NCBI GenBank assembly: GCA_002898895.1
Contig: BEHS01000007.1
Coordinates: 1-32,381 of the forward strand
DNA: 32,381 nt
Direction of reading: 5' to 3'
Source: a bacterium HR16
Lineage (GTDB): Bacteria > Armatimonadota > HRBIN16
Shown: positions 2,347 through 17,952 of the stretch, piece after piece
Position numbering within the stretch: position 1 is the first letter of the stretch
Layout of the letters: each line of letters opens with the position of its first letter
The notes under the pieces: model-generated
What the model was told of the DNA's origin: nothing
Databases searched by the model: none
What the model saw: the letters and a program-made list of their open reading frames with translations, nothing else
Program-made: the position numbers and the translations under genes

Positions 2347-3450
2347 ATGATGGGCTATGAAGCAAATAAACCTGCCTTCGCAGGTTCCTCTCAATCCGCG
2401 CAGGCGGATTTGGTTTCCCCCATAGCCCATGATTTCAATCGTGGGACGGGTGTAGAGACCCATCGTGGCACGTACACGTATGACGGCGCGGGCAGGCTGA
2501 TACAGGTGGTCGATGCTGCCACCAACACCACGGAGACGTATGTATGGAACGCAGACGGCACGTTAGCCAGTTTTCCGGGGCCTGGCTACACTCGGTTGTT
2601 AGAGTATGACGAGGAGGGCAGGCTGGTTCGCATTCGCCGGGATTACGGCGGAGGCAACGTGCAGTTAGCGTATGAGTATGGCTACGGATTTGACGGAGGC
2701 AGGCGTTGGCGGAAGGACTACCTGAGTGGGGTCTGGACGCGGTATCCGTGCGGTGTCGCCTGCGGAGCGGGTGAGCTGGTAGAGCAGCAGAAGCCTCTGG
2801 AAGGTGGCAGTTGGACGACCACTGCCCTGTATTTGCAGGGGATTTCGCTGGTTCGTCGAAACAATGAATGGCATCACTTCGACCCGTTAGGCACAGCAGG
2901 GGTGATTACGAACGGTTCCGCCAGCGTCATCAGCAACAACCTGTATGACCTGTTCAGGATGAAGCGGTATGAGCAGGGCAGTGCGGAAACGCCGTGGAGG
3001 TGGAAATTGCGACAGGAGGAAGAAGAAGGGCTCATCGCTTACCCACCAGCGGGATACGTCTTGGCTGAGGTAGGCGTCCAGATCGCGAAGACAACCTCTA
3101 CACTCGGCATCGACATAGACTGGGATCGCGCTAAAAGCTGCCTCAGGAGTGCCCTTGAAGGAGCGATATCTGGATGTCTCGCAGGAGCTGGCCCCTATTG
3201 TGGGCCCTGTATTGTCGGTGCAGTACCTGTTTGCATTATAGAACCTCCGGCTTGTGGGGCAGTCATGGGACTGTGTAAGATCTTCTGCTCAGGTCAGGTT
3301 CTGCATTGCATATGGGGTGCTATCGTCGGCGGTGCTGCCAATTTTCTGAAGTGCTACCATGACTGTGTCAACAAGAAGAAGCAACGGCAGACGGATTGCC
3401 CGATGCCAATGCCTGTTCAACCTGTACGCGCAGGGCTATCCACTATGTAG
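2347..3450 (+). CDS. Truncated RHS/YD-repeat protein with Cys-rich hydrophobic C-terminal tip
   Basis: YD/RHS repeats (YTYDGAGRLIQVVDAATNTTETYVWNADGTLASF, LEYDEEGRLVRIRRDYGGG) then a divergent tip with 12 Cys. No signal peptide or N-terminal shell. The start ATG lies inside a hairpin repeat. Confidence 0.75.
   Translation: MMGYEANKPAFAGSSQSAQADLVSPIAHDFNRGTGVETHRGTYTYDGAGRLIQVVDAATNTTETYVWNADGTLASFPGPGYTRLLEYDEEGRLVRIRRDYGGGNVQLAYEYGYGFDGGRRWRKDYLSGVWTRYPCGVACGAGELVEQQKPLEGGSWTTTALYLQGISLVRRNNEWHHFDPLGTAGVITNGSASVISNNLYDLFRMKRYEQGSAETPWRWKLRQEEEEGLIAYPPAGYVLAEVGVQIAKTTSTLGIDIDWDRAKSCLRSALEGAISGCLAGAGPYCGPCIVGAVPVCIIEPPACGAVMGLCKIFCSGQVLHCIWGAIVGGAANFLKCYHDCVNKKKQRQTDCPMPMPVQPVRAGLSTM
2349..2428. 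repeat. Multi-hairpin repeat overlapping the start of the RHS ORF
   Basis: ATGGGCTATG...CATAGCCCAT outer arms, with internal ACCTGC-cttc-GCAGGT and AATCCGC-gcag-GCGGATT hairpins. Confidence 0.7.
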
Positions 3451-3467
3451 CCGGAAGGAGGACATCA

Positions 3468-3851
3468 ATGCGCAGATGGTTGTTCTACATGGTAATAGGG
3501 GTATGGAGTTTTGTCACCACTGGAATGTCCACGGGTAGAACAGACCTGCTCTTACTGCTGGGTTTCAGCTGCGTCAGTGGCGTGGTTGTTTTTCTCCTGC
3601 AGTATGACGCACAAATGGCCAGGCGGTTTGGAGAGGGCGTTCAGCGCACGCTTGGAGACAAAAGTACCCTATTCATCGTGACACCTCCACTACTGCTGCT
3701 GGCAGGTTTGGTGCTGCTTTGGCTGGTGCTGCGCTGGTCTCAGCCATCCCATGTGTTGAGAATGCTTCTCGCTGGCGGAACGTTTATTTGCGTGCAGTGG
3801 GTAGCTGGCGCAGCCACAACCTTGATGGTGAGACGTTCTAGCCGAGCATGA
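3468..3851 (+). CDS. Small ~4-TM membrane protein; candidate immunity protein of the RHS tip
   Basis: ATG at 3468 preceded by GGAAGGAGG, 17 bp after the RHS stop; four hydrophobic segments in 127 aa. Confidence 0.65.
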   Translation: MRRWLFYMVIGVWSFVTTGMSTGRTDLLLLLGFSCVSGVVVFLLQYDAQMARRFGEGVQRTLGDKSTLFIVTPPLLLLAGLVLLWLVLRWSQPSHVLRMLLAGGTFICVQWVAGAATTLMVRRSSRA

Positions 3852-13908: not shown

Positions 13909-16900
13909 ATGCCAGCGCAACGTCGAACAGCCAGACAACCGCAGCTGTCACTAGCAGCACCATACGTGAATCGCGGACTGTTTGCCAGCAACTTTCTGCA
14001 GAACCACTTGCCTAACCTGCCCGAGTGGAGAGAGGCACAGGGGAGCGAAGAAGCTTTTCGCCGGGTCAGCGAACTGTACCAACAGAAGAAGCGGTTTCTG
14101 GAGACGAACCCCAACGAATCTCAAACAGAGCACGAGTTCATTCAGCCCCTTCTGGACATCCTCTGGGGAAGAGAAAACTATCGGGTACAACCGCCTCTGA
14201 AGACCGGCGACATACGGGGGCGACCGGACTATGCCCTGTTCCTCTCCGGGCAACAGCGCGACGAGGCAGATAAGCTGCAGGGGGAGCAGGAATACTGGCG
14301 ACATGCTGTGGCGCTGGCGGATGCGAAGCCGTGGGCAAGCTCCCTGGACAGGCAGAGAGGTTCGGGAGAAAACCCCAGCGCACAGGTTTGCCACTACCTC
14401 TACCGCTCGCAGGTGCGCTGGGGCATCCTGACGAACGGGCGTCACTGGCGGCTGTTCGAGCGCGACAGGTCCAGCCCGGGCGGCATCTACTTTGAGGTGG
14501 ACCTGCAAAGCATTCTCGATCAGGAGGATGTAGAAGGCTTTAAAACTTTCTATCTCTTCTTCCGTCGCGAAGCCTTCCTGCCTGATAAGACAGGCGTCTC
14601 TTTTGTGGAGAAGGTATTTCAGGGTAGTGTAGAACACGCCACCGAGGTGGGCAACCGCCTCAAGGATGCGGTATATGATGCCCTGCGCTACCTGATGAAC
14701 GGCTTTCTGGCGCATCCTGCCAACCGTCTGCACGCGGAAGAGGGAGAGACTCTCCAGCAAGTGCACGAAAACAGTCTTATCGTGTTGTACCGCCTGTTGT
14801 TCCTGCTGTATGCAGAAGACCGCGACCTGTTGCCCTGTGATGACCCCTGCTACCGTACCTACTCCCTGCGCGAACTGCACCGCGAAGTGAACGCGAGCCT
14901 GCGCAATAGTAAGCGTTACCTGCCAGGCACGACCGTACTGTGGGCGCGCCTGTGCAACCTCTTCCAGCTGATCGACAGGGGCTTTCAGGAAGGTGGACGT
15001 GTGGTCGTCCCCGCCTATAACGGCGGGTTGTTCAGTCCGTCGCACTATCCGCATATCGCCCATACGCCTCAAGAGGGAATACCTCATTGGGAAATCGGCG
15101 ACAGCTATCTGGCGGAGGCGATAGACCGTCTCGCCTACGAGCGTGAACGCTGGAACGAACCGGGCACGCTGGATGTGGACTACGCTACGCTCGACGTGCA
15201 GCATCTGGGCAGTATCTATGAGGGGCTTCTGGAGCTTCAACCTCGAATCGCTCAGAAGCCGATGGTAGAAACGATAGAGCAGGGCAAGGTGGTCTTTAAG
15301 GAGCGGACCGGCAACGCCCAACCCGCCAGGGTGCGCGGTCAACAGGCGCGTGAGGTGCAACCGGGCGAGGTGTACCTGGTCACCAATCGGGGCGAGCGCA
15401 AAGCCACCGGCAGTTACTACACGCCGCGCTACATCGTGAACTATATCGTCGAGAACACCCTTGCTCCCCTGGTGAATAAGGCGGCAGAGCAGGTAGCGCA
15501 GCTACGCCCGGAAGTAGAGGAGGAGATACAGCGGTTACAGGGAAAACAGCGCAAGTGGCAACGCTCCGGTATGCCCGACGCCGATAAGGAGGTTGCCAGG
15601 CTACAAGAACAGATAGAACAGCAAAAGCGCCGCCTGCTGGAGCCGTATCTGTCCATCAAGGTGCTGGACCCGGCGATGGGGAGTGGTCATTTTCTGGTGG
15701 GGGCGGCGGATTTCCTGAGCCTCGCGATGGCGACCGACCCGAACCTGCTTGCTCTCGACCAGATGGGCGACGAGGAGCCTCAGGCGTTCTACAAACGGCT
15801 GGTGGTAGAACACTGCCTGTATGGAGTGGACCTGAACCCGCTGGCGGTGGAGCTGGCAAAGCTCTCGCTGTGGTTACATACGGTGAGCAAGCAAAAGGCG
15901 CTATCGTTCCTGGACCACCACCTGCGCTGTGGTAACTCCTTGATAGGCGCGCGCATTGAGGAGGATCTGAGTCATCCCCCGCCCGCACCGGGTAGCAAAC
16001 GGCGGTCTAAAAGCGCGACGAACACACAGCTCGTGCTGGGCTTCGAGGAGACTCTGACAGGCACGCACCTGCATACCCTGCTGGACGCTTTCCGGCGCAT
16101 CATGGAGTCGCCTACTGGCGATGCCGAGACTGAACGCCAGAAAGACCGCAGGTATCGCGAAATGGATGCGGTGCGCAACCGCTTCCGCGCAGTGGCAAAC
16201 TGCTGGCTCGCCCCCTTCTTCGGCGTGCCTGTAACCGCACAGCAGTACGAGCGGGCTGTGGATGCTCTGAGCGACGTGGAGAAGTACAACGCTCTGACGC
16301 AGGAGCAGTGGTTTCAGAAGGTACAGGAGGTCGCCCGCCAAAAACGCTTCTTCCACTGGGAGCTGGAGTTCACCGAGGCCTTCTTCCATCCGCACGGCTT
16401 CAAACCACAGGAAGAAAGAGGCTTCGACGCGGTGATTGGCAATCCGCCGTGGCTGGGACTACGTACCGGTGAAATTCCTCAGGATCTTTTGGAATACCTT
16501 CGCTCTCGTTACCGCTCAGCAGTGGGGCAATTCGATTTAGCCTCCGTGTTTCTCGACCTGTCATGTGCTCTGTCATCAAGTGCAAGAGGCTGCATTGGGA
16601 CGGTGATTCCCAAGCGGATACTGACCAACGAGTCGTACGAAGTACTACGATACGCGCTCGCTATCGAACGACGGCTGACCGCCTCCATCGACCTGCGAGT
16701 AGCGTTCGAAGGTGTCGACAATGATGCTGCCATCCTGATCTCTGCACCGGCTAGCGACTCGTCCAGTACTTTGTTGCTCGGAAGACGAGTGGACCTGACG
16801 TCTATCACTGTGTCCGCTGTAGATTCGGCGGTCATCTCCAAGATGCCCTTCTACATCGTTCCAGTGAACAGTGACGTGCGCACTATCAAGCTGATCTCGG

Positions 16901-17952
16901 ATCTTGTCGGCGACGACGTAATCCCTTTGGGGGGGTTGATGGACATTGCACGGGGCGCCGAGTGTGGCATGAATCATCCTTCAATCTCGCGCATCGAAAC
17001 GCCGGACTCTCTACCGCTTGTTGACCACTTAGATGTCTGTCGGTACAGTATCGTGCACGGGGGGTGGTTTATAGACCCTTCCAAGATTGACCAGAGCACT
17101 ATGAAGTCACCTGACATCTATAGAAAGGTACCGAAACTTCTTGTTAGATTCTTGTCCGCAAGCCTAATTGTAGCACGAGACGATTACGGATACGCTTCAA
17201 CGAATCTTGTGTACCACGCTGCTGTTAAGCAAGGTGTGCCCTATGCGCTAAACTACCTCCTGAGCCTTCTCTGTTCACGGTTGCTCAATTTCTGGTATCG
17301 GAATGCGTTTCAAAATGAGGAAGTCAAGTTTCCCCATGTGCAAAAGTCCCATATTGAACGTCTTCCCATTCGCCGTATCGACTTCGTGACGCCCGCTGGG
17401 GAGCGGGCAAAGCGAGTGCAGCAAGGACAATCGCTCTACGAACGGTATCTGAAGAGGGAGGTCGCTCTGGAAGACATTCTCGCTTTCGTGGAGCAACAGG
17501 TCGGTTGCACCCCTGATCACGCCGACGTGGTGCACGATCTGCTGGCGTACCTGGCGGAGCAGATGACCACCATGCACCGCGAGAAGGCAGAGGAAATGTC
17601 GGGCTTCCTGCGCTGGCTGGAAACCGAGCTGGGTACGTCCATCGATGCCTTGCAGAAGAAGACAGCTATCCGCAACTACCATGAAAACAGCTTGCAAGAC
17701 CTGCTGCAGGCACTGCGGGCGAACAGCAACGCCCTCGGCGAAAAGGTGCATGAGCGCGAGTTCCAGCAGGCTTTGCGGAAGGAGTTCGAGAAGAGCATGG
17801 GCAAACTGAATCCGCTGCAGAATCGCATCGCGATGACTGACAGGTTGATAGACCACATCGTATATCGGCTGTACGGCTTAAGCGAGGAGGAGATTGCCAT
17901 CGTAGAGGCGTCGGAGCATTCCAGACAGCGGGGAGAAGTTGAGGGAGGATAG
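13909..17952 (+). CDS. Eco57I-like / type IIG restriction-modification protein (fused nuclease-methyltransferase-specificity)
   Basis: N-terminal GRPDYALF...ALADAKPW compatible with PD-(D/E)xK; MTase motif I VLDPAMGSGHFLVGA; motif IV GNPPW; C-terminal specificity region and helical tail. Confidence 0.9.
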   Translation: MPAQRRTARQPQLSLAAPYVNRGLFASNFLQNHLPNLPEWREAQGSEEAFRRVSELYQQKKRFLETNPNESQTEHEFIQPLLDILWGRENYRVQPPLKTGDIRGRPDYALFLSGQQRDEADKLQGEQEYWRHAVALADAKPWASSLDRQRGSGENPSAQVCHYLYRSQVRWGILTNGRHWRLFERDRSSPGGIYFEVDLQSILDQEDVEGFKTFYLFFRREAFLPDKTGVSFVEKVFQGSVEHATEVGNRLKDAVYDALRYLMNGFLAHPANRLHAEEGETLQQVHENSLIVLYRLLFLLYAEDRDLLPCDDPCYRTYSLRELHREVNASLRNSKRYLPGTTVLWARLCNLFQLIDRGFQEGGRVVVPAYNGGLFSPSHYPHIAHTPQEGIPHWEIGDSYLAEAIDRLAYERERWNEPGTLDVDYATLDVQHLGSIYEGLLELQPRIAQKPMVETIEQGKVVFKERTGNAQPARVRGQQAREVQPGEVYLVTNRGERKATGSYYTPRYIVNYIVENTLAPLVNKAAEQVAQLRPEVEEEIQRLQGKQRKWQRSGMPDADKEVARLQEQIEQQKRRLLEPYLSIKVLDPAMGSGHFLVGAADFLSLAMATDPNLLALDQMGDEEPQAFYKRLVVEHCLYGVDLNPLAVELAKLSLWLHTVSKQKALSFLDHHLRCGNSLIGARIEEDLSHPPPAPGSKRRSKSATNTQLVLGFEETLTGTHLHTLLDAFRRIMESPTGDAETERQKDRRYREMDAVRNRFRAVANCWLAPFFGVPVTAQQYERAVDALSDVEKYNALTQEQWFQKVQEVARQKRFFHWELEFTEAFFHPHGFKPQEERGFDAVIGNPPWLGLRTGEIPQDLLEYLRSRYRSAVGQFDLASVFLDLSCALSSSARGCIGTVIPKRILTNESYEVLRYALAIERRLTASIDLRVAFEGVDNDAAILISAPASDSSSTLLLGRRVDLTSITVSAVDSAVISKMPFYIVPVNSDVRTIKLISDLVGDDVIPLGGLMDIARGAECGMNHPSISRIETPDSLPLVDHLDVCRYSIVHGGWFIDPSKIDQSTMKSPDIYRKVPKLLVRFLSASLIVARDDYGYASTNLVYHAAVKQGVPYALNYLLSLLCSRLLNFWYRNAFQNEEVKFPHVQKSHIERLPIRRIDFVTPAGERAKRVQQGQSLYERYLKREVALEDILAFVEQQVGCTPDHADVVHDLLAYLAEQMTTMHREKAEEMSGFLRWLETELGTSIDALQKKTAIRNYHENSLQDLLQALRANSNALGEKVHEREFQQALRKEFEKSMGKLNPLQNRIAMTDRLIDHIVYRLYGLSEEEIAIVEASEHSRQRGEVEGG

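Follow-up and report, generated by a model that had tools for sequence, protein, structure and literature searches.

A probable orphan RHS cassette with a cysteine-rich candidate toxin tip and a candidate membrane immunity gene in bacterium HR16 (Armatimonadota)

Organization of the locus

We analysed a 32,381-nt stretch of DNA (here called the window), which is contig C7 of the genome of bacterium HR16 (G000; 3.8 Mb, 94% complete). Two intact open reading frames (ORFs) lie on its forward strand at positions 2347-3450 (367 aa) and 3468-3851 (127 aa), downstream of a gltX-like gene (704-2140). A perfect 84-bp tandem duplication (2091-2260) lies over the 3' end of the latter gene. The 367-aa ORF is a composite. 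It begins with a dispersed palindromic repeat, which is not RHS sequence and takes up the first ~34 codons (2347-2448). It continues with the 3' fragment of an RHS gene (2449-3003; 185 codons) and ends with a polymorphic C-terminal tip, a candidate toxin (3004-3447; stop codon, 3448-3450). The second ORF is separated from it by 17 bp and has its own Shine-Dalgarno (SD) sequence, AAGGAGG (3455-3461), with 6 nt between it and the ATG (3468). Its product has four hydrophobic segments and is a candidate immunity protein. An initial annotation had described the RHS end that switches to a Cys-rich tip and the closely linked downstream gene, and both were confirmed. Elsewhere in the window, a 1347-aa protein (13909-17952) contains a PglX-like DNA methyltransferase domain that scored far below the BREX cut-offs; it is probably a single-chain restriction-modification enzyme.

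The RHS fragment and its 5' boundary

Searches of the 367-aa ORF against Pfam and NCBIfam returned RHS/YD repeats only. The RHS part ends at the junction YDLFRMKRYEQGSAETPWRW, which is characteristic of an RHS subfamily described below. At the protein level, it is 95% identical to a longer RHS gene on contig C264 of the same genome and 92% identical to another on contig C38 of the sister genome G002.

The dispersed repeat forms the 5' boundary of the fragment. Its core is present in 27 copies in the genome at three or fewer mismatches, including the copy at 2347-2448. On at least four contigs (C7, C30, C136 and C227), RHS 3' fragments begin at the 3' end of this repeat, which may mark or cause RHS rearrangement. 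The sole ATG available to the tip fragment, at 2347, is located inside the repeat and shows no SD sequence. It is therefore unlikely to be a genuine translation start, and the fragment has no start of its own. A promoter scan of the orphan gave scores no better than those of shuffled sequences.

Selection was assessed for the RHS part, since the nearest homologue of the tip is saturated. The dN/dS ratio was 0.060 against the C264 gene and 0.069 against G002. Splitting the changes between the branches by arithmetic on the counts assigned ~7 nonsynonymous and 24 synonymous changes to the window copy, and 4.5 and 21, respectively, to C264. At the level of substitution counts, this shows purifying selection on the RHS fragment, and the branch of the window copy is not enriched in nonsynonymous changes. 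Thus, the branch-wise counts give no sign of long relaxation.

These data bear on the possibility that the cassette is a former toxin-immunity pair that was left by rearrangements between repeats as a non-expressed remnant and does nothing today. We consider this unlikely. The ORF start within the repeat, lacking an SD sequence, fits such a remnant, as does the genomic setting: several other RHS 3' fragments in the genome carry stops or frameshifts, and contig C136 looks as though an internal deletion had brought an RHS 3' end and the repeat together with a signal-peptide region. However, the frames of the tip and of its partner are intact in the window, the SD sequence of the partner is strong, and the RHS part, with a dN/dS of ~0.06, is not relaxed on the window branch. 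Of the two fates that the initial annotation had considered, displacement of a cassette is borne out by an orphan that has no start, and decay is weakened by the selection on the RHS part.

A family of cysteine-rich tips and its membrane-protein neighbours

The sequence switches at 3004 to a tip of 148 aa, and the RHS part before it stays conserved. A hydrophobic Cys-rich domain (3136-3399) contains 12 Cys in 88 residues versus ~0.9 expected (binomial chance, ~2e-10; background, 81 of 7701 residues in 15 other genes of the window). The tip is rich in Gly and Ala, with the GxxxG runs GAISGCLAG and GAIVG, and its hydropathy is moderate, with two segments reaching 1.79 and 1.50. The initial annotation recognised no nuclease or deaminase motif in it. 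No significant match was obtained in Pfam, NCBIfam, PDB sequences or PADLOC, and no recognisable catalytic motif was seen in the window tip. The tip was also unmatched in plasmid and phage collections. An AlphaFold2 model based on a 13-sequence alignment was all-alpha with four helices and of mediocre quality (pLDDT 74, pTM 0.46). The Foldseek comparison proposed in the initial annotation was run with this model and revealed no significant structural relative in PDB or BFVD; the best neighbours, which were insignificant, were ATP-synthase c-subunits.

Two described domains were considered and rejected. The Halocin C8 domain, which is small, Gly/Ala-rich and rich in Cys like the window tip, served as a lead. 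Its model TIGR04449 had no hit in G000, G002 or G015 at E 0.01, and none of 101 genomes exceeded the cut-off; the control, Haloferax volcanii, was matched. The only match in the 101 genomes, at 20.3 bits (cut-off, 24), was a different Cys-rich RHS tip (L064, on G035:C5), which has a DPYGL junction and is followed by hydrophobic ORFs. The pore-forming Tox-WTIP domain is characterised by RxxR and Wx[ST]IP signatures (PMC3482391), and inspection by eye of the translated tip revealed no Wx[ST]IP.

Single-sequence and profile searches detected homologues of the tip in about nine Armatimonadota genomes. The homologue in G002 is 36% identical (E 3.5e-17), and that in a Chthonomonas calidirosea metagenome-assembled genome (MAG; G056) was found at E 1.3e-6. 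Further homologues are present in G118, in G251 and in four genomes of another family; more cassettes composed of RHS end, tip and transmembrane (TM) gene were found in the family f7 genomes G015, G096, G097 and G098. Weak matches in G012 and G031 were read as chance. A wider GTDB scan with a three-row tip profile, which relies on two short patterns, returned the Chthonomonas MAG only. Ten Cys columns are common to the first three family members, and across 13 tip sequences six Cys are invariant and two more are nearly so. Based on these comparisons, the tip apparently represents an undescribed family of toxin domains, with putative toxicity.

The initial annotation had reasoned that a tip found only on fragments would speak against a toxin. 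This is not what was observed. In the C. calidirosea MAG (locus L053), the tip homologue forms the C-terminus of an RHS frame that spans 1084 aa or more and runs off the contig. There the tip sits behind YVNGRPTKWTDPSGL, a DPSGL junction, and a 124-aa multi-TM gene follows immediately. A second homologous tip (L063) is likewise preceded by a DPxGL-type junction (DPTGL). On contig C38 of G002, a long RHS gene bears a Cys-rich tip of another kind and is accompanied by a TM gene. Two orphan cassettes come next; in the first, the homologue of the window tip is paired with a TM gene of its own.

The 127-aa partner protein has hydropathy segments starting at about residues 5, 26, 70 and 96, with peaks of 1.22, 2.40, 2.52 and 1.50; the outer two are thus weaker than the inner two. 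A low-confidence model shows long helices at residues 2-22, 25-46, 66-90 and 95-126. No convincing homologue of this protein was found. BLASTP of the window partner against the G002 and G056 partners gave no signal, and no alignment was obtained among the partners of homologous tips. Nevertheless, a small multi-TM gene (at least two segments of 19 residues with mean hydropathy of at least 1.6) follows 10 of 12 distinct members of the tip family, two lacking a clear multi-TM neighbour, but none of 21 ordinary RHS tips (Fisher p 7e-7; the p values given here are indicative only, as loci were picked by best match, include some paralogues and were parsed with simple ORF rules). In this count, G251 was included through its second-longest candidate frame and G097 and G098a were counted as one; the ordinary tips were taken from canonical core ends surveyed across the phylum. 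The linkage anticipated in the initial annotation therefore holds, at the sequence level, for a kind of gene (multi-TM) and not for the window's partner gene itself, since the partner TM genes have no recognisable mutual homology. Together with the homologue on a long RHS frame, it supports the pair as a candidate toxin-immunity module.

The type of partner also varies with the type of tip within the genus. Multi-TM partners accompany 8 of 8 hydrophobic tips versus 1 of 6 soluble Cys-rich tips (Fisher p 0.003, likewise indicative). As judged by eye, several of the partners that are not multi-TM proteins start with a putative signal peptide.

An RHS subfamily without the DPxG junction

The DPxGL-type aspartyl-protease motif is absent at 2989-3010 and in the subfamily of the genus as a whole, in which the RHS body ends with YDxFGVxRYxQGxAxTPWRW instead. 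The initial annotation was right that DPxG is missing, and its reading of this as a sign of damage was dropped: the absence is normal for the subfamily, and many intact tips stand behind the same junction. All 16 intact tips behind it contain 8-18 Cys, versus 1 of 26 parsed tips behind canonical cores. The subfamily body comprises DUF6531 and 13 RHS repeats, and the longer genes are preceded by MLRRFPYLRTLATVCILSLTVQVAAPLFA, a Sec-signal-like sequence. VipA (PF05591) of the type VI secretion system (T6SS) had no match in the window's own genome, at 94% completeness. Behind the same junction, a 15-Cys tip (L117, on G001:C22) contains the phospholipase-A2-like motif CCMAHDTCYD (Pfam E 0.021, below cut-off). 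From the Sec-like start, the missing VipA and this sister tip, we infer that the subfamily tips act outside the cytoplasm.

The 5' ends of the longer genes (L144-L153, L016, L026; the own-genome copy is on G000:C25 near 24350) share a further feature. In all ten gene copies that were inspected, the signal peptide is in a different frame from the RHS body. In 8 of the 10, a poly-G tract lies between the signal-peptide-like ORF and the RHS body, with 7, 8, 8, 10, 10, 10, 10 and 13 G; it is interrupted in the remaining two. To bring the two parts into one frame, the tract would have to lose one G or gain two at offset 1, and lose two or gain one at offset 2. G/C runs of at least 9 are rare in the genus loci analysed: 150 kb contain five distinct ones, of which four fall at the poly-G site. 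This arrangement could reflect phase variation, slippage or a shared inactivation, which assembled alleles alone do not separate. It is conceivable, if more doubtful than probable, that the genus has a distinct system of Sec-exported RHS proteins that dispense with DPxG cleavage, carry exclusively disulphide-rich membrane or envelope tips with membrane or exported immunity proteins, and are expressed under poly-G control.

Interpretation of the cassette

Positions 2449-3851 probably represent an orphan rhs-CT/rhsI cassette, with a candidate disulphide-rich, membrane-disrupting tip and the TM protein as its antidote. Known orphan rhs-CT/rhsI and cdiA-CT/cdiI modules likewise combine a core fragment, a variable tip and a small downstream gene (PMC3150448). 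At the window locus, an RHS core with a variable tip and no start of its own is followed by a small gene, an arrangement that recurs in other genomes. As in the orphan rhs-CT/rhsI modules, own start signals are missing, tandem or displaced copies occur, and a longer locus exists elsewhere in the genus. Orphan CDI fragments generally have no starts, and their toxins work once expressed; toxicity and its neutralisation have been demonstrated for orphan modules, as has the production of one orphan immunity protein (PMC3150448). The window subfamily differs in its YDxFGVxRYxQGxAxTPWRW junction, which replaces DPxGL, and in that all its tips are Cys-rich; the function is putative here.

For the mode of action, two precedents are relevant. 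Tse5 of Pseudomonas aeruginosa has a DPXGL aspartyl-protease junction and a PAAR-like N-terminus and is delivered by a T6SS (PMC9637101, PMC10684867). In both Tse5 and the CDI ionophores, the tip is hydrophobic and helical and depolarises the membrane, and the immunity proteins are hydrophobic as well (PMC9637101, PMC10684867, PMC11630599). The window system resembles Tse5/Tsi5 in having a hydrophobic RHS-borne tip with no enzymatic motif and an integral-membrane partner. In contrast to Tse5/Tsi5, its tip is Cys-rich, the partner has four TM segments rather than the two of Tsi5, and the longer relatives have a signal-peptide-like start. Tse5 is thus a working analogy and not a family to which the window tip belongs, as neither DPxG nor T6SS VipA was found. 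CDI ionophores share with it the helical hydrophobic tip, glycine-zipper-like runs and hydrophobic, highly divergent immunity proteins (CdiI). They are delivered by CdiA, have a separate entry domain and form a five-helix bundle, and Cys-richness is not described for them (PMC11630599). The window tip is carried by an RHS protein instead of CdiA, its mediocre model has four helices, and no sequence link between the two was found.

Given these precedents, the GxxxG runs and the four-segment partner, we favour a disulphide-stabilised membrane disruptor with a membrane-embedded antidote. The cassette, composed of RHS end, polymorphic tip and immunity gene, would have been displaced from a longer RHS locus, and recombination in the conserved RHS 3' end could join the tip to an RHS body. 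The tip would be exported, as suggested by the signal-peptide-like start of the longer subfamily genes. Once folded, with disulphides in place, it would enter the cytoplasmic membrane of an adjacent cell and collapse the membrane potential. The four-segment partner has its own ribosome-binding site; in the membrane of the owner, it would bind to and block the tip. The orphan cassette may serve mainly as stored immunity. Module anatomy, tip family, multi-TM linkage and selection on the RHS part can be read directly from the DNA; we infer that the tip is toxic, targets the membrane as a pore or ionophore and has disulphides, and that the partner confers immunity. We are considerably more confident about what kind of module this is than about how precisely it acts.

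It is quite unlikely, in our assessment, that the Cys-rich tip works in the envelope as an enzyme or a binding toxin instead of as a pore or ionophore, its TM partner guarding a membrane or periplasmic target. The phospholipase-A2-like sister tip, whose Pfam match is below cut-off, and the several soluble Cys-rich tips with exported-looking partners are compatible with such an activity; in the window tip itself, no catalytic motif is recognisable, GxxxG runs lie in a Gly/Ala-rich sequence, and the family to which it belongs pairs with multi-TM genes.

Cys-rich protein ends can cross-link or bind metal, and the tip has no known activity; still, a structural or surface-anchoring RHS end beside an unrelated TM gene is very improbable, because tips that are highly polymorphic behind one junction, and whose partners differ from one tandem cassette to the next, point to toxin-immunity modules, as does the strong association with TM genes.

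A search of full-text literature found no paper on RHS toxins in Armatimonadota. The analysis adds a testable candidate toxin-domain family, with its partners, in this phylum, and points to an RHS subfamily in which all tips are Cys-rich and probably work outside the cytoplasm. Hydrophobic tips with membrane partners and soluble tips with exported partners form a natural series in which it can be studied how the delivery route shapes toxin chemistry.
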